From assembly GCF_007197755.1 (NCBI RefSeq), contig NZ_CP041636.1, forward strand, positions 310,001 through 374,000: 64,000 bases of DNA. Direction: 5' to 3'. Positions 10,007 to 34,198 of this stretch are shown here, piece after piece. The translations under genes were made by a program, and so were the position numbers. How positions within the stretch are numbered: the first letter of the stretch is position 1; every line of letters starts with the position of its first letter. This stretch comes from Ferrovibrio terrae (lineage in GTDB: Bacteria; Pseudomonadota; Alphaproteobacteria; Ferrovibrionales; Ferrovibrionaceae). The notes under the pieces were generated by a model that searched no databases, had not been told where the DNA came from, and saw only the letters and a list, made by a program, of their open reading frames with translations.

Positions 10007-10930
10007 TCAGGCCTCACGAATGGCAACGCCGAAGCCGGTCTGGCCGAAACCGTTGCCGTTGTAGAACAGATGCGTGCCGCCGGGCAGCGCCGTCACCGCG
10101 CTAAAGCTGATGGCTTCCGAATCCCAGCCGTCCGGCGAGACATCCAGGCCCAGCGCCGCGTCGTCGCGCTGCCAGGTGCGACCATCGACCGAAATGGCAT
10201 AAGCCAGCCGGTAGCCGTGCCGCAGCGTACGCGTCGAGAAGTAAAGCTCGTATCCGGCCGTTGACGACACCACGAAAGGCCGGCCGAGGCCGTGTTCGAC
10301 CGCCTCATCGGGCCCGAGCACGAAACGGCTGGGCCCCGTCCATTGCCGGCCATCGGCCGAGTGTACTTCGCGCATGTGATAGCTCGGCACCGCCTTGCCG
10401 CCGACCTCCACTTCATGGTCGCCGGCGATATACAGCATGCGCCAGTTGTCGCTGCCGTCACGCAACACGAAGGGTGCGGTGCGATAGAGCAGTTCGCCGT
10501 CGCAGCGCTCCAGGATCGGCGCCTCCGAGATGCGCGTGAAGCTTTCGCCGCCGTCGCGGCTGATCGCCAGACCGCTGAACAGCGTGTAACGGACCTGCAC
10601 GCCGAGCTGATAGCCGACGTAATAAAGCCAGAGCTCGTCACCGCGCCAGATCGCGCAGGTGGGATTGACGCCATTGTCGTCAAAACAGCCCGCCCGGCCG
10701 ATATCGAGCACCGGTTTTTCTGAGCGACGCAGGATACGGGTCGGGTCGCGCGGATCGAGATCGGCATAGCCGATACGGCCGACGCCCCTGTCGTCGCAGG
10801 AGGCGAAATAGATGCGCAATCCACCATCGGGCATCCCGACAGGTGTCGGGATCATCGCATGACTGCGCGCCCAGGGCTCATGGCCATCCGGCGCATAAAC
10901 ACGCCCGAGCTTGCGCCAGCGCATGGTCAT
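10007..10930 (-). CDS. Five-bladed beta-propeller, glycoside-hydrolase-like protein
   Basis: 307-aa protein with repeated motifs of the GH32/43/68-type five-bladed beta-propeller: ARSHAMIPTP, DDNGVNPTCAIW, LWLYYVG, GLAISRDGGESF and YELYFSTRTL. No signal peptide is apparent, so it acts in the cytoplasm. Similar proteins are common in sugar-nucleotide and O-antigen loci with no settled activity. It starts 1 bp after the acetyltransferase gene and lies between it and the FdtA-type gene, so it belongs to the amino-sugar branch by position. Hydrolase function is unproven; catalytic acids cannot be assigned with confidence. Confidence 0.7.
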   Translation of the reverse strand: MTMRWRKLGRVYAPDGHEPWARSHAMIPTPVGMPDGGLRIYFASCDDRGVGRIGYADLDPRDPTRILRRSEKPVLDIGRAGCFDDNGVNPTCAIWRGDELWLYYVGYQLGVQVRYTLFSGLAISRDGGESFTRISEAPILERCDGELLYRTAPFVLRDGSDNWRMLYIAGDHEVEVGGKAVPSYHMREVHSADGRQWTGPSRFVLGPDEAVEHGLGRPFVVSSTAGYELYFSTRTLRHGYRLAYAISVDGRTWQRDDAALGLDVSPDGWDSEAISFSAVTALPGGTHLFYNGNGFGQTGFGVAIREA

Positions 10931-10931
10931 G

Positions 10932-11609
10932 TTATTCGGGCACCTTGAAGAAGCGCCAGGTCGTCAGTCTGGCAACCTCAGCATCAGCCGGACGAAACAG
11001 CTGTCCGGCGCCGGTATCTTTCGAGATCACGCAGCCGGGCCCGACCCAGTTGTCCTTGCCCAGCGTGAGATTGTTGGCCAGCGTGGCATTCACGCCGAGG
11101 AAGCTGCCGCTGCCGATGGTGCAATAGCCCGAGATCACTACATGCGATGACACGAAAACATTATCCTCGATCACGGAGTGGTGTCCGATATGGTTGCCGC
11201 TCCACAGCACGACATTGTCGCCGATGGTCACAAAAGGCTGCACCACGTTGTTCTCGAAGATGAAGCAATGCTCGCCCAGCCTGGCATTCTTCCACACAAA
11301 TGCCTGCGGGCTGATATAGCTGGCCGGCCGGTAGCCCAGTGCCCTGGCGGCCGCCAGCAGCCGGGCGCGCAGGCGATTCATCTGCGTGTAGACCACGGCG
11401 ACAAAAATATCGTGTTCGTCCGGCGGATACAGTGTGGCCAGGTTCTCAAAGGCCACGACCGGGCGGCCCAGCAGGCTGTCGCGCCCGAGATAGGCCTGCT
11501 CAACGGCAAAGGCGACCACCTCATACTCTTCGCCAGCGCTGAAATACTCGCAGGCGATCTCGGCAAAGGCGCTATCGCCGACCAGAACGAGTTTGCGTTT
11601 CTGCGCCAC
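10932..11609 (-). CDS. PglD/NeuD-type sugar acyltransferase (left-handed beta-helix)
   Basis: 225-aa protein with an N-terminal Rossmann-like PglD domain (KLVLVGDSAFAEIA) and a C-terminal left-handed beta-helix of hexapeptide repeats (residues about 100-200), containing the NHIGHHSVI segment with the likely catalytic His. Family members N-acylate UDP- or dTDP-linked amino sugars. Its place between the FdtB-type aminotransferase (3 bp gap) and the FdtA-type gene suggests that it acetylates the 3-amino group, as FdtC/QdtC does. Start is GTG, supported by GAGAGGG just upstream. Confidence 0.8.
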   Translation of the reverse strand: MAQKRKLVLVGDSAFAEIACEYFSAGEEYEVVAFAVEQAYLGRDSLLGRPVVAFENLATLYPPDEHDIFVAVVYTQMNRLRARLLAAARALGYRPASYISPQAFVWKNARLGEHCFIFENNVVQPFVTIGDNVVLWSGNHIGHHSVIEDNVFVSSHVVISGYCTIGSGSFLGVNATLANNLTLGKDNWVGPGCVISKDTGAGQLFRPADAEVARLTTWRFFKVPE

Positions 11610-19467: not shown

Positions 19468-19540
19468 GGGGGTCTGGACGGGCCGGACCTTAACCGAGCC
19501 AACGGGTTGCGCGCAAGGCTGGCCGGGCGCCGGCTGCCGC

Positions 19541-19660
19541 TTCGTTTTGCTTCGCAGCGGTTCGTGGATGTTCGTACGGGTTCGTGGCGGTTCGCTGGCG
19601 TTCGTGAGCGTTCGCGGCGGTTCGTGGGTGTTCGTGAGCGTTCGTGGGAGTTCATTCGCC
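19541..19660. repeat. 12-copy 10-bp tandem repeat (TTCGTGNNNG) on the 5' side of tRNA-Arg
   Basis: Twelve consecutive 10-bp units, each starting TTC(G/A) and most of the form TTCGTGNGNG, fill 19541-19660 with no insertion or deletion. Unit length is close to one DNA helical turn. The array starts 74 bp upstream of the tRNA 5' end. Since 10 is not a multiple of 3 and stop-free frames arise on both strands as a by-product, it is more likely a structural or slippage repeat than coding sequence. Terminal copies are the most degenerate. Confidence 0.85.
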
Positions 19661-19717
19661 TCCTCCCTGTCCATCGCATGACGATACTCGCGCGACGCGC
19701 GATCAGCGGCGGCGCGC

Positions 19718-20314
19718 CTAATGTTTGCGCGGTGGCCTGACCGGAGCGCGGATCAGCAGCGGCGCACCGTTACGGTCGGTCAACTTTCCTTCACCCCGAT
19801 AATCGAGAATGTTGCGCAGGAACGTGAAGGCCAGCTCATAGGCATGCTCCGGCCATTCGGAACGGATCGCATTGTCGAACCCATGGAGCGAGCAGCGCGT
19901 GCGGCAGGTCCATTCGCCATGATCGGCGCGCTCGGGCGGCTGCACCTCGGCAGTAAAATCCGTCAGTACGCCATTGTGCAGGCAGCGGCCGAGAAAGCGC
20001 GCGGGCGCGAAACAGGGAATACCGAACTCATCCATCACCGGCACGGGAATGCCAGCCGCATTGCCTGCGGCATCGCAGACCTCGAAGCCGAGCCCGTACG
20101 TGTTGAAACGCAGGAAGGCGGCGGCCTTCGAGTAGGCCCATTCGGGATAGCGCGAGCGGAACTGCCCGCCGCCGCCGATGAGCGGACAGGAGAAACTGCA
20201 GAGATAGTCGTCCGTGCCGTCATCGGCGGCGACCGGCGCACCGACCTCGCCAGTCAGCGGCCGGGTGATGCCATCGGGATAGCGGGCGACGAGGGAGAAG
20301 GCGAAGGCTTTCAT
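19718..20314 (-). CDS. Hypothetical protein with internal duplication
   Basis: 198-aa soluble protein, family not recognised. It looks like two related halves: the first has CSFSCPLIG...FRSRYPEWAYSKAAAFLR (about residues 38-68) and the second CRTRCSLHG...IRSEWPEHAYELAFTFLR (about residues 136-166), each with a Cys-x3-Cys pair followed by a Pro-Glu-x-Ala-Tyr helix. GAGG lies just upstream of the ATG. It sits between the tRNA/repeat region and the foreign-looking AAA ATPase but has host-like base composition. Function unknown. Confidence 0.65.
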   Translation of the reverse strand: MKAFAFSLVARYPDGITRPLTGEVGAPVAADDGTDDYLCSFSCPLIGGGGQFRSRYPEWAYSKAAAFLRFNTYGLGFEVCDAAGNAAGIPVPVMDEFGIPCFAPARFLGRCLHNGVLTDFTAEVQPPERADHGEWTCRTRCSLHGFDNAIRSEWPEHAYELAFTFLRNILDYRGEGKLTDRNGAPLLIRAPVRPPRKH

Positions 20315-20366
20315 GGGCCCTCACTATAGAACATAACGGGAACTTCCGCAAGGCAATCTTTCTGAG

Positions 20367-22625
20367 CTAATACCCTTTGGCGAGTTCCAATGCCAAAATC
20401 GCATGAGCTTTTATCTCGTCGTGATCAACAGCGGGGGCATTCATATGATGGTATTTAGTACCGAACGAGTTCACAGATTCCAGATCCTGAAGATGCTCAA
20501 ACAGTGCGTGAGCTTGGCCCGCTCCGCGAATGACGCCGATCATTACCCCTAAGGATTTGCTCGACTTGAAATCACCCGGAAAGCGATAGCGCAGATGCGC
20601 TTCTAAGACGGGGCGAACGTTGCCGGCAATTAAGCGTAGTTCACTGCAGGAATCGGTCGCCACAAAATCGGTCAATTCCGCGTGCTGCTTAAAATAAACG
20701 TCCTGTACTTCCTGATAAATGTCCCACTCGCTCATATTGGTTTTGTGTTTTGCTTTTACGAACTGCTGACAAGTAACCGTATGAGCATCGAGAACAGAAT
20801 GCAGTTCGTTGATAAAGAACGCATCGTGGGAGAAGAGAAATAACTGAGCGCATTCTGAACCGAACTTCTTTAGCAGATGCGCAGTCTGTACTCGTCGTGA
20901 CCTATCTTGACTATTAAATGGGTCATCAAACACAACGATCTTCTTAGCCTTATCCGGATCGTTGTCTAATTGGGCCAAGAAAAATGCCAGCGCCAGCGTA
21001 CTCTTGTCTCCTGCCGACAATGTATTTTTGAATGATCGTTGCCCCAAGGGAGTCTCTTCATCTCCCAAATCTACTGGGTGTCCATTAATAAGGAACTGGT
21101 ATTGTGCACTCGGTGTACCTCCGATGTAGTTGTGCAAACTGTTCGCCATCCTGAAATCAGCTGCGAACCTGGTGAGATACTTGTTAATGGAATCTTCGTA
21201 TCGCTTCGTCATACTTTGGAAATAAACATCCAATCTGTTCCTCGCCAATTTCTTCCGTTCATCCAACTCAACCTTCTCGGCCATTAAGGCCTGAAGAGCA
21301 GTGCAGTAAGCGGCCATATCCGGTTCATGTCGCCTTTTCTGCAGATTCAGCAATTTGAATTGCGACCTCAGATCGTCCAAGTTTGCTTTTCTTGTGGCGG
21401 CTTTTAGGTGCTTAATTTTTTCGTTCTTAAGCCCCACCTCTGAGTTATAGGCACCAAGTCTATCGACGAGGTCTCTAATTCCACTTTCGGCTGACCTGTA
21501 ATCACTCCCCAATTCAATTTTACTCAGGGGGTTTTGCAGTTTTCTACGAACGTAATCGAGAGCAATTCTTTGAAAATCGGCTATCACCACAGGATAATCC
21601 GAAATATCCACCTTGCTGTCTTTCACGTCGAGGAACTGTCCCCAAAAACCGATGGCTCTCCCATTTTCGGAATACTCAACTGATATCAACGATACATTTT
21701 GCGGTCCTAGCTGACTCACAAAAGCGAACTCAAGTTTCTGCACTTCATCAATAAATTTGGCATACGCCTCCCCAAAGTAGGCCTTATAAGCATCAATCAG
21801 GGAAAGCGCTCTTAAACCTTGGCCGCAAAATGGGCACTCGTCCTTCTTTATAAAGCTTACACCCGCACGCAACCATCTCTCGCCTTCATGCCCCATCGAA
21901 TGCATCGCAATTCGTGACTTAACTATCCCTTCGGCCTCCTCGGCAATACGATCCAAGGTCGCGGTGACTATTTCGTCTACACCCTCTGGAATTTTTGGAA
22001 CGACCAATTCATTTAGTAAAAAGTTTGCGCTGATCTCGCTTGCTCGCTCGGCAGCTTTAATTTCTATAGCTTTCTCATTCATCAAATCATCGATACTGCC
22101 TACTTTTTCTAACTCTAAGTAGTCGTCGACATTTATCCCGTGCGGTTTGATTTCTTTCTCAAGGTCACGCCGGCGAGATAATATCTCGACATTCTTTTCC
22201 CGAATTGCAGCATCCAAATCATCGACATCTTTCTTGAGAGCGACGCCCGCACGACCGACGATTACCTCCAGTTGCTTGCGCCGATGATCGCGGTCTATGT
22301 AGTCGCCCGCATGAACATTCTCGGATATAAATGCGGAGTCGAAGATGGAAATATTTGGAAGCGTGGCCGACCATGCGCCATCAAATGTAATCGTTCTATC
22401 GTCTGTCAGTATTTTAACTTTGGGCGAAGCATCTCCACCCAAAGTAGCCCGTTCAGTAATATAGGCAGACTCACCTGACGCCAGAGACCTTAAGACGGCG
22501 CAGACTGTTGTTTTGCCGCATCCGTTGGACGCAAAAAATAAGTTAAAGCGATTTAACTCGACTCCTTTCTGACTCGCTTTGTGAAAGCGCCCAACATTGG
22601 AAATTTCCGCAATTCTATTGAGCAT
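20367..22625 (-). CDS. AAA family ATPase with CXXC hook, RloC/PrrC-like (AAA_13)
   Basis: 752-aa SMC/Rad50-like ABC ATPase. Walker A NGCGKT at 34-39, coiled-coil stretches about 120-250 and 380-470, a CPFC zinc-hook-like motif at 264-267 between them, signature LSAGDKS at 536-542, Walker B IVVFDD at 563-568 and H-loop His600. Beyond the ATPase, R671-x3-E675 is followed by His706, a spacing close to the Arg/Glu/His anticodon-nuclease triad described for PrrC and RloC. This makes a tRNA-cleaving defence protein plausible but unproven; an OLD/RecF-like DNA-repair ATPase is the alternative. Codon use is visibly A+T-richer than its neighbours, suggesting transfer. AAGGAG precedes the start. Confidence 0.75.
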   Translation of the reverse strand: MLNRIAEISNVGRFHKASQKGVELNRFNLFFASNGCGKTTVCAVLRSLASGESAYITERATLGGDASPKVKILTDDRTITFDGAWSATLPNISIFDSAFISENVHAGDYIDRDHRRKQLEVIVGRAGVALKKDVDDLDAAIREKNVEILSRRRDLEKEIKPHGINVDDYLELEKVGSIDDLMNEKAIEIKAAERASEISANFLLNELVVPKIPEGVDEIVTATLDRIAEEAEGIVKSRIAMHSMGHEGERWLRAGVSFIKKDECPFCGQGLRALSLIDAYKAYFGEAYAKFIDEVQKLEFAFVSQLGPQNVSLISVEYSENGRAIGFWGQFLDVKDSKVDISDYPVVIADFQRIALDYVRRKLQNPLSKIELGSDYRSAESGIRDLVDRLGAYNSEVGLKNEKIKHLKAATRKANLDDLRSQFKLLNLQKRRHEPDMAAYCTALQALMAEKVELDERKKLARNRLDVYFQSMTKRYEDSINKYLTRFAADFRMANSLHNYIGGTPSAQYQFLINGHPVDLGDEETPLGQRSFKNTLSAGDKSTLALAFFLAQLDNDPDKAKKIVVFDDPFNSQDRSRRVQTAHLLKKFGSECAQLFLFSHDAFFINELHSVLDAHTVTCQQFVKAKHKTNMSEWDIYQEVQDVYFKQHAELTDFVATDSCSELRLIAGNVRPVLEAHLRYRFPGDFKSSKSLGVMIGVIRGAGQAHALFEHLQDLESVNSFGTKYHHMNAPAVDHDEIKAHAILALELAKGY

Positions 22626-22862
22626 GCCGTTCCCCTTCTCCTTTTACCCACAAGGCTAAGGCATAGAAGCGGCAACACGCCAGATGATTACCATGGTATG
22701 CTATCTTATGCTGCCCCCGCGTTGGGGCGAGGAGGTCAACAAGATCGGTGTTTTGCGTGGGCAGGCTGGGATCGTCAGCATGCCGCCGAAGTGTATCGGC
22801 CCTGACTATAATTCAAGCGCAGGGCTACCGACCTAACAGTCCCGCGTAGAACGCACCCGCCC
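22626..22862. other. Intergenic stretch upstream of the AAA ATPase, no gene recognised
   Basis: About 240 bp without a supportable gene. The left end carries the ATPase ribosome site. The remainder is mixed in composition, includes an A+T-rich patch near 22680-22715, and marks the right boundary between the A+T-rich gene and host-like DNA. I saw no integrase fragment, direct repeat or terminator I could defend. Confidence 0.4.
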
Positions 22863-23771
22863 CTATGCCTTCGCCGCCTCGTCCATCAGCAGATCGAGCG
22901 GCGTGCCGCCGAACACATGTTCCTCGGTCAGCGTCGCCATCAGGTTCATCGCGCCGTAGAAGTGCAGGAAATAACAGTTCTGCAATTCGCGGCGCACCAG
23001 ATAATGCGCCATCCGGATGATCGACGGATGCAGGTGTTTCGGCTGGTTATCCCAGATGAGGATCTCGGGCACATAGAGCAGCAGCGTTTCCTGGATGCCC
23101 CAGTTGAACCTGGTGTTGAGCAGATGGCCGAGATCGCGTTCGATGATCTCATGCGACAGCAGCGGCTGTTCGTAGAGCCGGGCGCCCGCATCCTCGCCGT
23201 CATAGCAGTGCAGGAACAGATCCCGGTGATGCCTGGGCGACACCACCAGCACGCCGGTGTTGAACATGATGTCGTGCTCAGGGACATTGTGGTCCCGGTA
23301 GTTCTTTCTGATTTCCTGCTCCCACACCATGTCCTCGGCATCGGGCAGGAACTGCGCGTTATGCAGGCGCTCGAGATAGATCATGCGTTCGGCGCTTGAA
23401 CTGCGCGCGCCGGCCACGGCGAGGCTGATCTTTTCCGGCGGACCGGACGAGGCCACGATGTCCTGCGCCTCGGGGCCGATGATGATATCGGAATCGATCC
23501 AGACAATGCGCTCATACTGCGCCGACCAGGGCTGGCTCAGGATCAGCAGCTTCTGCCAGGCCGGTGAGCGCGCCTGCGCCCTGCTGCCGGTATCGAGCGG
23601 CTGGCTGATGATGATCACATCGTAATCGAAAGTCCGGGCATAGCGGAGCCAGGAGGCCCGGCACAGGCGCAGCCAGGTGGCGATGTAATTCGGGCCGATA
23701 ATGAGGGTGACGATGGCCGTCTTGCGCCCGGTATGGGGAACCACGCTCTCGGGCGTATCCAGTACGAACAT
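22863..23771 (-). CDS. Glycosyltransferase with DXD motif (GT34/nucleotide-diphospho-sugar type)
   Basis: 302-aa GT-A-like protein. TAIVTLIIGPNY begins the nucleotide-binding fold, YERIVWIDSDIII holds the metal-binding DSD, and MFNTGVLVVSPRHHRDLF resembles the GMA12/MNN10-type galactosyl/mannosyltransferase core. The start at 23771 is selected because AGAAGGG lies about 11 nt upstream; an in-frame extension to 23837 encodes a basic low-quality tail. It stands alone, 89 bp downstream of the ABC ATPase, and its glycan target is unknown. Confidence 0.68.
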   Translation of the reverse strand: MFVLDTPESVVPHTGRKTAIVTLIIGPNYIATWLRLCRASWLRYARTFDYDVIIISQPLDTGSRAQARSPAWQKLLILSQPWSAQYERIVWIDSDIIIGPEAQDIVASSGPPEKISLAVAGARSSSAERMIYLERLHNAQFLPDAEDMVWEQEIRKNYRDHNVPEHDIMFNTGVLVVSPRHHRDLFLHCYDGEDAGARLYEQPLLSHEIIERDLGHLLNTRFNWGIQETLLLYVPEILIWDNQPKHLHPSIIRMAHYLVRRELQNCYFLHFYGAMNLMATLTEEHVFGGTPLDLLMDEAAKA

Positions 23772-23859
23772 GGGACGGCGCACCCTTCTGGTGGCTGGCT
23801 TCCGGCCCTTCTTGCCAGAGCGGCAGAAGCCCTGCAACGGATTTGTCGGCCGGGCCGCG

Positions 23860-31083: not shown

Positions 31084-32100
31084 ATGCGCGCGATCGAACT
31101 GCAGAGCTTTTCGGTCGACAGCCTGCGCATGACGGAGCGACCCGACCCAACTCCAAAGCCGGGCGCAGTGCTGGTGCGGGTGAAGGCCTGCTCGCTGAAT
31201 TTCCGCGACTGGCTGATGGCGCTCGGCCAGTATAATCCGAAACAGAAACTGCCGCTGATCCCGGTCTCCGATGGCGCGGGTGAAGTCATCTCTGCCGGCG
31301 ATGGCGTGCGGGATTTCAAAGCCGGCGACCGGGTACTGGGGCATTTCTTCCCAGCGTGGGAGTCCGGCGAGCCCAGCGTCGAGAAATTCAGCGTCAGCAT
31401 GGGCGGGCCGTTCGATGGCTGGCTCTGCGAACAGCGCACGTTTCCGGCAAGCGCGCTGGCGCATATCCCCGCGCATCTCTCTTACGAAGAGGCTGCGGCC
31501 CTGCCCTGCGCCGCGCTGACCGCCTGGAGCGCCATCGTCACGCTCGGTAAAGTGCAACCCGGCGAGCGCGTGCTGATCCAGGGCACCGGCGGTGTCGCGC
31601 TGTTTGCGTTGCAGTTTGCCAAGCTCGCCGGCGCGGAAGTGATCATGACCTCGTCGTCGGACGAGAAGCTGGCGCGCGTCAAGGCCATGGGTGCCGATCA
31701 CCTGATCAACTACAAAACCGATACCAGCTGGGGCCATACGGCGCGCGCGCTGACCGGCGGGGCCGGCCTTGACCACATCGTCGAACTCGGCGGTGCCGGC
31801 ACGCTGATGCAGTCGATCCGCGCCATCCGGCCCGGCGGCACGATCAGCATGATCGGCGTGCTGTCAGGCCCCGGCCATGATCTGAAGATTCCGCTGGTGG
31901 TGATGCAGCAGATCCGGCTGCAGGGCGTGACGGTCGGCGCCAAGGACGGCTTCGATGCGATGCTGCGCGCGATCAGCTTAAGCGAACTCAAGCCGGTGCT
32001 CGATGAGCGTTTCGACTTCTCGGAAACCGGCGTGCGTGCTGCATACAGTCATATGGGCGGCGGCAGCCATTTCGGAAAGATTGTGCTGACTTTCGACTGA
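31084..32100 (+). CDS. MDR superfamily alcohol dehydrogenase/quinone reductase-like
   Basis: 338-aa medium-chain dehydrogenase. N-terminal GroES-like half has SLNFRDWLMALG and PVSDGAGEV; the cofactor half has the Rossmann motif GTGGVALFALQFAK. The cysteine cluster that binds the structural zinc is absent and the usual catalytic Cys position reads Asn-Phe-Arg-Asp, so it is probably zinc-independent. Third gene of the Ldh-hydratase operon. Confidence 0.85.
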   Translation: MRAIELQSFSVDSLRMTERPDPTPKPGAVLVRVKACSLNFRDWLMALGQYNPKQKLPLIPVSDGAGEVISAGDGVRDFKAGDRVLGHFFPAWESGEPSVEKFSVSMGGPFDGWLCEQRTFPASALAHIPAHLSYEEAAALPCAALTAWSAIVTLGKVQPGERVLIQGTGGVALFALQFAKLAGAEVIMTSSSDEKLARVKAMGADHLINYKTDTSWGHTARALTGGAGLDHIVELGGAGTLMQSIRAIRPGGTISMIGVLSGPGHDLKIPLVVMQQIRLQGVTVGAKDGFDAMLRAISLSELKPVLDERFDFSETGVRAAYSHMGGGSHFGKIVLTFD

Positions 32101-32122
32101 GCCTGCGTATAGTGCCGGCCCC

Positions 32123-32695
32123 ATGCAGCCCCGCGTCGCGCTCTACACCTTCGGAATCTTTGCCAGGCCATACGCCGACCCGGCGAATGACAGCTTCCAC
32201 GCGCGCAACGAGGCCAACCTTGCCGCCGTCGAGGCCAGCGCGGGCTTCATCGCGCGGTCAGGCTATGACGGCGATCCGGGTCCGGCGAGCTGGGGCACAC
32301 ATGCCTATCCGCGTTTCTATACCGGCAGCGACGCGCATTCGCCGTCCACGCTGTCGCTGTGGAGCGATCTGGAAGCGCCGATGGCCTACACCTATCACGG
32401 TATCCATGCCGAGGCGCTGTCGCATGGCCGCGACTGGTTCGCCAGGCCGATCCTGCCGCCGGCCAAACCGGCCTGGCCGCCCTATGTGCTGTGGTGGGTG
32501 ACGGCCGATCATGTGCCGGACTGGCGCGAGGCGGTCGCGCGGCTGGAATACCTGCATGATCACAGCGCATCGGCGCGGGCGTTTGACTGGAAGACACCGT
32601 TCGATGCCAGTGGAGCGCCGTGCAGTATCGATCGCGACAGCGTCAGACGACGAGCTGACCTCAATCGAATACGTTCATCAAAATCCGCTGTATAG
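32123..32695 (+). CDS. DUF3291 domain-containing protein
   Basis: 190-aa protein. ALYTFGIFARPYADP, SAGFIARSGYDGD, and LSLWSDLEAPMAYTYHGIHAEAL are the DUF3291 core; WWVTADHVPDWREAVARLEYLHDHSASARAFDWKTPFD ends the domain. The last 16 residues (from RRRADLN) look unlike the rest and the stop lies in a motif that recurs after the DUF4238 gene, so the tail may have been altered by an insertion. Function unknown, possibly monooxygenase-like by fold. Confidence 0.83.
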   Translation: MQPRVALYTFGIFARPYADPANDSFHARNEANLAAVEASAGFIARSGYDGDPGPASWGTHAYPRFYTGSDAHSPSTLSLWSDLEAPMAYTYHGIHAEALSHGRDWFARPILPPAKPAWPPYVLWWVTADHVPDWREAVARLEYLHDHSASARAFDWKTPFDASGAPCSIDRDSVRRRADLNRIRSSKSAV

Positions 32696-32751
32696 TTTTC
32701 GCACCCCACATTGATTCAGGGCAATTCTTCGGAAGGTGAATTGGGATTCAA

Positions 32752-33669
32752 ATGCCCCAGCAAGAGGCGCGCGAACATCATTACGTTCCCAAACTTCTCC
32801 TGAAGCCATGGCTCATCAAGGGGAGAAACGGCGAACTAAATCTTCATGGCTACTGGTGGAACCCAAGGGCGAATAAGCTCTTTTGCAAGATTAAAGGTCT
32901 CTCTGCGTTTTGCATGCAACTCGATTTATTAAGCTTGCGTGCAAGCAATTTAGGGAGAGATGCCCTTGAACGCATTTTCTTCGGGGATGTAGACACCAAG
33001 GGTGCCATAGTTAAAGAAGCAATCCTCAATGGAGGAACAGCACATCTAGACTCCCAGCAGCGTTCTGATTTTGCGCGGCTATTGCTTTCGCTCGAGGCCA
33101 GACGTCCTGCTATTGTGAGTAAACTGAAAAGTGATGGAGCAAAATTTATTGCTGAAGCTCTAGATAGCGATGCTGAACTACAGGAAGAGTTTCGCAAGCT
33201 AGGGATTAATCAACCGCCCTCCTCTTATGTTCAGAATGAATTCGGGTGGGACTTACAAGATCGTGCCTTAGGGGTTATTCAAAAGCTTGTCGACAACCCA
33301 AGAGTTGGACGCCCATTTATCAATGCCGCGTGGGGCATCAAGCACATAAGTAGTACATCACCTAGTCTTGTTTTGTCAGATCGCCCTCTGATACGGGTAT
33401 TTGGACATGACAATCCGGATGCTATTTGGCTACTTCCTCTAACCCCGCAATCGGCGTTTATAGCGGCAAACCGTTCGGAAAACTTAAAACGCACACTGAA
33501 CCTTAGCGATCAACAGTTCGCAAAGTTGGTTAATGTTCAAAGTGCAGTTCAAGCGGAGCGCTTCGTATTCAGCACGAACGAAGAGGACAAAGCTTGGCTT
33601 ACCAAGCACCTCAAACGCTCCCCTAAACCTCTGTATAATTCCGTTTGCCCGCGATCCGGTGCAGGATGA
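32752..33669 (+). CDS. DUF4238 domain-containing protein, foreign composition
   Basis: 305-aa protein that starts with the DUF4238 signature HHYVPKLLLKPW (residues 9-20) and contains SSTSPSLVLSDRPLI and LLPLTPQSAFIAANRS, typical of the family's C-terminal half. Role unknown; family members are scattered in accessory DNA. Codon third positions are much A/T-richer than in the genes on either side, pointing to horizontal acquisition. GGAAGG lies upstream of the ATG. A TATAAT box for the next gene falls near its 3' end. Confidence 0.78.
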   Translation: MPQQEAREHHYVPKLLLKPWLIKGRNGELNLHGYWWNPRANKLFCKIKGLSAFCMQLDLLSLRASNLGRDALERIFFGDVDTKGAIVKEAILNGGTAHLDSQQRSDFARLLLSLEARRPAIVSKLKSDGAKFIAEALDSDAELQEEFRKLGINQPPSSYVQNEFGWDLQDRALGVIQKLVDNPRVGRPFINAAWGIKHISSTSPSLVLSDRPLIRVFGHDNPDAIWLLPLTPQSAFIAANRSENLKRTLNLSDQQFAKLVNVQSAVQAERFVFSTNEEDKAWLTKHLKRSPKPLYNSVCPRSGAG

Positions 33670-33697
33670 TTCTACCGATCCAGCCCCGGAGCCCGCC

Positions 33698-34198
33698 ATG
33701 TATGTCCTGATCCTGACCATCGTCCACACCGCCATCAGCCTGGTGGCGCTGGCGACCGGACCCGCCGTGGTGGCCGATCTGCTGGGCAGCCGCGAGCGCG
33801 AGGGCATGACCAAGCTGTTCCTCGCCATGGCGCTGCTGACCAGCGCGACCGGCTTCCTGTTTCCCTTCACGCAAATTCTGCCCTCGCATGTGGTGGGCGT
33901 CGTCGCGCTGGTGGTGCTGGCCGTGACGATCCCGGCGCGCTACCGCTATCAGCTTCGTGGCGCCTGGCGCTGGATCTACGCCGGCGGCGCAGTGGCCAGC
34001 CTGTATCTGCTGGTCTTCGTGCTGATCGCGCAGCTCTTCACCAAGATTCCCGCGCTGACGGCTGCCGCGCCGACGCTGTCGGAACCGCCCTTTGCGGTGA
34101 CGCAGGCGGCGGCCTTCGCGATCTTCGCCGTGCTCGGCCTGCTCGCGGTACGCCGCTTTCACCCGGCTGCTGCACTCGCTCCTTCAACGGCAGGGTAA
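33698..34198 (+). CDS. Five-helix integral membrane protein
   Basis: 166-aa protein with about five transmembrane helices (residues about 3-28, 36-58, 63-85, 95-118, 134-152) and no recognised domain. ATG 33698 is used because the open frame upstream is the end of the DUF4238 gene in another frame. Its last 40 nt overlap the 3' end of the convergent SnoaL-like gene. Confidence 0.65.
   Translation: MYVLILTIVHTAISLVALATGPAVVADLLGSREREGMTKLFLAMALLTSATGFLFPFTQILPSHVVGVVALVVLAVTIPARYRYQLRGAWRWIYAGGAVASLYLLVFVLIAQLFTKIPALTAAAPTLSEPPFAVTQAAAFAIFAVLGLLAVRRFHPAAALAPSTAG

Follow-up and report, generated by a model that had tools for sequence, protein, structure and literature searches.

The window analysed here, a stretch of 64,000 nucleotides from Ferrovibrio terrae, carries at 20367..22625 on the minus strand a gene for a predicted RloC-like ATPase-HEPN protein of 752 aa that matches Pfam PF13166 and the PADLOC candidate system PDC-S06. 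The gene is a single intact open reading frame (ORF), as a preliminary description of this DNA had reported, and lies on the minus strand; the plus strand of the interval contains many stops. The A+T-rich codon use described against G+C-rich neighbours was likewise confirmed: the gene has a GC3 of 0.489, 11 AGA codons and 12 AUA codons, and the eight neighbouring ORFs measured for comparison have 0.759-0.869, 0-2 and 0-1, respectively. GC content is 0.46-0.53 across 20001-23000 and mostly 0.62-0.68 in other parts of the window. By composition the gene is foreign. A second lower-GC patch lies outside it, at 32001-34000 (0.587 and 0.544, compared with mostly 0.62-0.68).

The gene is the only recognisable one in a low-GC foreign insert of ~2.55 kb (20315..22862, no strand assigned), between a 198-aa ORF (19718-20314) and a 324-aa ORF (22863-23837), neither of which had an NCBIfam or PHROGs match. 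The flanking DNA is matched collinearly in a same-genus genome, G001: the match runs as far as 20314 on one side and resumes at 22867 on the other, and in G001 the two matched flanks are separated by ~0.5 kb of different DNA. The ORF list, the comparison with G001 and a check of the upstream end, where short ORFs of 20-74 aa are all that accompanies the RloC-like gene, revealed no second gene in the insert. When 61 genomes were searched at an E-value of 1e-3, three gave any match: the gene itself was found only in the window's own genome, no close copy was present in the 60 relatives, and G003 and G026 matched the protein over just 96 and 75 residues, the former through a distant full-length RloC-like protein in a different genomic place. 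A nucleotide-level donor search among plasmids returned one 116-base match, in Paracoccus (72%). Foreign composition, the flank match to G001 and absence from relatives together suggest that the gene was recently acquired, as a single gene, in agreement with the horizontal transfer and stand-alone position proposed earlier.

The same interval differs among relatives (window 20315-22862; L125:3935-4672; L124:7040-7756; L123:3446-3596). Where the window has the RloC-like gene, G005 and G002 instead carry a 245-aa gene (67% identical) that reads as ATPase-like, of which two fragments remain in G001. The RloC-like gene of G003 (L127:6834-9095), a member of the same genus, encodes a Ser-His protein with a CEFC hook that scores 455.7 bits to PF13166, and sits between ORFs 932-2872 and 10441-11424, read as two ribonucleotide reductase subunits. 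At the ends of the insert, a search for repeats found no direct repeats of 14 nt or more and four inverted pairs, one of which (14 nt, 86% complementary, 20295-20308 / 22867-22880) lies just outside both ends, in flanking coding sequence, and is possibly due to chance. Promoter and terminator matches were no more numerous than in shuffled sequence. A tRNA-Arg gene lies ~0.9 kb from the RloC-like gene, and nothing was found tying the tRNA to the insertion; downstream of it, at 19530-19700, GTTCGTG-type near-repeats match many sites in the same genome and several in relatives.

Residues 1-642 form an ATPase head for which fold comparisons match Rad50, SMC and RecF structures. Its motifs, all on the minus strand, are conserved across an alignment of 93 rows, comprising the protein and 92 others that include two RloC-like proteins (L003, L004); L001 (identical to the query), seven short sequences (L019, L020, L021, L096, L097, L099, L100) and L031 (internal stop) were omitted. 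The Walker A motif (residues 31-40, FASNGCGKTT; 22506..22535) has N34, G37 and K38 in 92/93 rows each, and the ABC signature LSAGDK (residues 536-541; 21003..21020) has S537 in 93/93, G539 in 90/93 and D540 in 91/93. Walker B and the D-loop (residues 563-574; 20904..20939) contribute D567, D568 and D574, and the switch histidine is H600 (20826..20828), each kept in all 93 rows. A zinc-hook-type CPFC motif (residues 264-267; 21825..21836; C264 92/93, C267 93/93) occupies the presumed apex of a helical insert, and in the predicted model lies between helical segments 224-241, 247-255 and 276-306, with a local pLDDT of only ~55-60; both its position and the helices on either side had been correctly described. 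Compared by sequence with solved structures, a profile of the clade matches Rad50, RecF and ABC transporters, while one RloC-like and one PADLOC-PrrC protein compared in the same way had no match. The PDB fold comparisons contained no RloC- or PrrC-named entry among the 50 matches listed of each, and the named entries in a viral structure comparison were all SMC- or Rad50-like proteins. These data support an RloC-like protein with a Rad50/SMC-type ATPase head and a zinc-hook-type CPFC motif, whose zinc binding is putative.

The C-terminal domain (residues 643-752; 20370..20699, minus strand) is predicted to be all-helical, with a pLDDT of 90.5 and a pTM of 0.82 for the model of residues 632-752. 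HEPN structures head its PDB comparisons with modest scores, which point to a HEPN-like fold and a predicted nuclease. The helical arrangement resembles that of the HEPN ribonucleases Csm6 and HepT and, as modelled, forms the expected helical bundle; unlike in these enzymes, the canonical Rx4-6H motif, which is absent from some HEPN families, is not found. No Arg is conserved before H727 (column 722 is mostly Ala, Ser or Thr); the Arg that is conserved, 56 residues N-terminal to the His, belongs to a preceding helix. The full-length model covers 64, and the C-terminal alignment 72, of the 75 full-length relatives from species genomes. Across the 73 aligned C-terminal domains, invariance is confined to three columns, R671 (20613..20615), E675 (20601..20603) and H727 (20445..20447), which are kept in 93/93, 93/93 and 92/93 rows of the larger alignment. 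The consensus around H727 is INxYxxxFHHD. R671 and E675 had already been proposed as triad residues and this stands; the third proposed residue, H706 (20508..20510), does not, being His in only 21/93 rows and opposite a gap in 15/15 RloC-like and 8/8 PrrC rows, while the histidine of the Ser-His pair of RloC-like and PrrC proteins falls in the H727 column. Since H706 is not conserved and H727 is, the likeness in spacing to PrrC (X30 compared with X31) was coincidental, and the conserved spacing is E675-X51-H727. On conservation, then, the third residue of the predicted triad is H727, giving Arg-X3-Glu-X51-His. The residue before the catalytic His is His in 87/92 rows, as in the protein itself (H726, kept in 87/93), and Ser in 2/92. 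The Glu-to-His spacer is 49-58 in 91/92 rows, and exceeds X52 in 66/92 rows with E and H.

Two RloC members, from Geobacillus kaustophilus and Acinetobacter baylyi, figure as studied in the parts of the literature consulted. RloC is described there as a protein of 658-897 aa whose gene is in most cases not linked to restriction genes, with the motif Arg-X3-Glu-X36-52-His (in the protein studied R692, E696 and H737, any of which abolishes activity when mutated) and often a Ser before the His (PMC2610378). A hook mutant was hyperactive (PMC2610378), and DNA-break inducers activate RloC, with disruption of tRNA, even in a restriction-deficient host (PMC3874168). The present protein resembles RloC in its Rad50-like head, its CXXC in a coiled-coil insert, its C-terminal Arg-X3-Glu-Xn-His and its size. 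In detail, the ABC ATPase motifs are present (K38 92/93; S537, D567, D568, D574 and H600 93/93), as is the hook, where model confidence is low; 752 aa falls within the published size range; and the spacer falls within the published range with H727 (X51) and outside it with H706 (X30). It differs from GkaRloC, whose spacer is X40, and from the usual RloC in having His-His in place of Ser-His and in its separation from Ser-His stand-ins in the tree (see below). As judged from sequence, it has the published RloC features except the Ser before His, which is usual and not required. The RloC-type reading of the preliminary description therefore stands as regards the AAA_13 match, the Rad50/SMC head, the hook, the HEPN-like fold and a triad, and is only partly supported because one triad residue, H706 in place of H727, was misassigned.

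PF13166 (AAA_13) matches residues 11-742 at 114.8 bits (cut-off 36; E 6.4e-33), compared with 455.7 bits for the G003 protein. The best PADLOC match is the PDC-S06 model PDLC04895 (E 4.1e-63), which is also best for the relatives L020, L022 and L023, while the G003 protein is best matched by another PDC-S06 model, PDLC04894. PDC-S06 is a candidate label; such PADLOC candidates have since been renamed to DefenseFinder types, with no mapping given in the excerpted source. Further matches are to PHROG 2801, of unknown function (E 3.3e-22, residues 251-610), and PADLOC mad3 (E 5.5e-12). In a profile comparison with PrrC, which the preliminary description had proposed, no PADLOC PrrC model matched at E up to 1, whereas the G003 protein matches the PrrC model at 3e-15. 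PrrC shares the combination of an ABC ATPase and a C-terminal nuclease domain, with R, E and H aligned. As described, it differs in its length (341-416 aa), in lacking the hook insert and in its genetic linkage to type I restriction (PMC2610378). The present protein does not have this form of a short hookless protein in a type I restriction locus. Membership in PrrC was rejected, with profile, size, hook and context all against it.

PF13166 was found in 39/299 genomes of the phylum (E 1e-10) and the PADLOC PrrC model in 14/299 (E 1e-40). A tree of 64 hand-picked sequences, quickly made without bootstrap, with long branches and SH-aLRT supports, comprised the protein, 38/90 full-length relatives, L146, L147, 15 RloC-like proteins (L103 and 14/29 intact PF13166 loci, PrrC-like and other types excluded) and 8/10 PrrC loci. 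In this tree RloC is represented by Ser-His PF13166 stand-ins, without GkaRloC or AbaRloC, and the His-His clade falls outside them. Forty-one rows, including the protein, form one side of a branch with a support of 99, and 37/41 have a literal His-His. The eight PrrC proteins form a clade (support 100), and the 15 Ser-His RloC-like proteins form two (99 each), whose union as one clade is unsupported. The C-terminal alignment gives spacers of X49-58 in the His-His clade (41/41), X36-44 in the RloC-like proteins (14/15 measurable) and X31-39 in PrrC (8/8), and a Ser before the His in 15/15 RloC-like and 7/8 PrrC proteins. The His-His C-terminal profile matches those of the two RloC-like groups at E 4.1e-05 and 0.0011 and that of PrrC at 0.23. 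Weak values of this kind are usual in the RloC-like/PrrC family, since the first RloC-like group matches PrrC at just 0.0025. In sequence comparisons, therefore, the protein is placed in a distinct His-His branch, separate from PrrC and from the Ser-His RloC-like stand-ins.

Relatives were drawn from plasmids (42 records, 18 loci fetched) and from species genomes, where an alignment-based scan gave at least 595 candidate stretches, at least 359 of them encoding a relative, and the best 80 were kept. Single-sequence scans of genome contigs and viral contigs confirmed no relative, and a phage collection contained none at E 1e-5. The relatives collected span many phyla (mostly as MAGs) as well as plasmids. 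The preliminary description had raised a search for restriction genes beside relatives, and such genes are present: counted from Pfam-named clusters, as lower bounds without a background control, type I genes lie within two ORFs on either side at at least 9/73 loci, and type I or GmrSD-type genes at at least 12/73. A tally of 137 of the 138 nearest-neighbour ORFs (L063 left out) contains, among the 25 of 109 Pfam families listed, N6_Mtase 4, Methylase_S 4, HsdM_N 4, ResIII 3, GmrSD_N 3, resolvase 6 and DUF2130 5. At annotated plasmid loci with full-length members, restriction or DNA-methylase genes occur within 7 kb in 6/13 (L005, L006, L007, L010, L011, L012) and are absent from that range in 7/13 (L008, L009, L014-L018), with the unannotated L013 outside the count. 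For RloC itself, the published survey, as excerpted, counts 8/72 genes within restriction loci of type I or III (PMC2610378).

We consider it probable (roughly 0.68) that the gene encodes a stand-alone ABC-ATPase/HEPN ribonuclease working like RloC, that is, a DNA-gated enzyme of phage defence that cleaves RNA, likely tRNA, and stops translation. Architecture, conserved motifs, fold resemblance, foreign composition and the restriction-gene neighbours of some relatives form the basis in the present analysis; dimerisation, the DNA trigger, the tRNA target and phage defence are carried over by analogy from RloC. We infer a DNA-gated, translation-stopping RNase because the parts of RloC are also present in this protein. 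On binding ATP, the Rad50-like heads would dimerise and the CPFC hook would join or gate the coiled coils, and in the undisturbed cell the head would keep the C-terminal HEPN nuclease (R671, E675, H727) inactive. Upon infection or DNA damage, broken or abnormal DNA at the head may cause ATP turnover that frees the nuclease, which would then cut RNA, most likely in the tRNA anticodon loop, so that translation halts and the phage fails.

The same architecture and defence role would also fit an enzyme that is not an anticodon nuclease, whose HEPN domain cuts another tRNA site, mRNA or rRNA and in which the His-His motif and the longer helix-helix spacer mark the changed target. Consistent with this are the separate clade with its support of 99, His-His in 87/92 and a spacer of 49-58 in 91/92 where the RloC-like proteins have Ser-His and 36-44, a profile that matches those of the second RloC-like group and PrrC weakly or not at all, and the cutting of mRNA reported, in the part of the source consulted, for some other HEPN enzymes (PMC3710099). 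The triad is kept, however, and X51 lies within the published RloC range of X36-52, so this alternative appears unlikely, though it deserves consideration. More generally, the His-His motif and longer spacer of the clade suggest a substrate or setting other than that of Ser-His RloC. A wider proposal sets the clade apart from RloC proper, as an ABC-HEPN defence family that spans phyla and has an RNA target and a trigger of its own; some members would form two-gene units with DUF2130, and others, of 510-518 aa and encoded on plasmids of lactic acid bacteria, would have lost the hook. This proposal is tentative, and we judge the odds to lean somewhat against it.

Other readings have less in their favour. 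A DNA-repair or DNA-processing ATPase of the Rad50/SbcC type with a non-catalytic helical tail would account for the match of the head to Rad50, SMC and RecF structures, but is highly improbable when invariance in the tail is limited to the nuclease triad positions, when AAA_13 and PDC-S06 are the profiles spanning nearly the whole protein, and when the gene is found in 1 of the 61 genomes searched, a distribution that does not suit a core repair gene. Equally doubtful is that the gene is one half of a multi-gene system whose partner, a restriction enzyme or DUF2130 protein, is absent or acts in trans. DUF2130 genes directly upstream on the same strand in five relatives, and type I or GmrSD-type genes within two ORFs at 12/73 loci, would favour such a system; conversely, the insert holds no recognised second gene, and at 61/73 loci the two ORFs closest on either side include neither restriction type. 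Moreover, among N6_Mtase-bearing types the only match in the genome is a 269-aa frame at 21.5 bits, barely above the cut-off of 20.4, which makes a type I partner in trans unlikely. A PrrC-type nuclease silenced by a type I restriction enzyme would share the aligned triad, but the protein is twice the size of PrrC, has a hook and lacks a PrrC profile match, no adjoining restriction gene was recognised and no strong HsdM-type match was found in the genome; this reading is almost certainly wrong.

By analogy with RloC, the gene most likely encodes an RloC-type phage-defence enzyme that belongs to a distinct and widespread side branch of the family. RloC couples the sensing of DNA breaks to a nuclease that stops translation. 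The widespread His-His clade keeps the triad and has a different residue next to the catalytic His and a different length of sequence between the two catalytic helices. Because motif and spacer are altered with the triad intact, the clade offers a direct way to test how RloC-like enzymes choose their substrates. Additionally, Arg-X3-Glu-X49-58-His-His can serve as a signature for members, such as the one described here, that escape the PADLOC PrrC model.

Two variants were seen among the relatives. At five loci (L054:6569-8005, L055:6708-7949, L058:6657-7934, L060:470-1747 and L075:6670-7980; hosts Phycisphaerae, Methyloglobulus, two Nitrospira and Caenimonas), a DUF2130 gene, its identity checked by name at one of the five, lies directly upstream of the His-His ATPase on the same strand, from an 8-base overlap to 63 bases apart, and may form a two-gene unit with it; a literature search, judged by title, gave no defence paper on DUF2130. 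On Leuconostoc and Lactococcus plasmids, short members without CXXC (L019:2309-3847 and L020:4602-6131; 510-518 aa as cut) keep Arg-X3-Glu and His-His.
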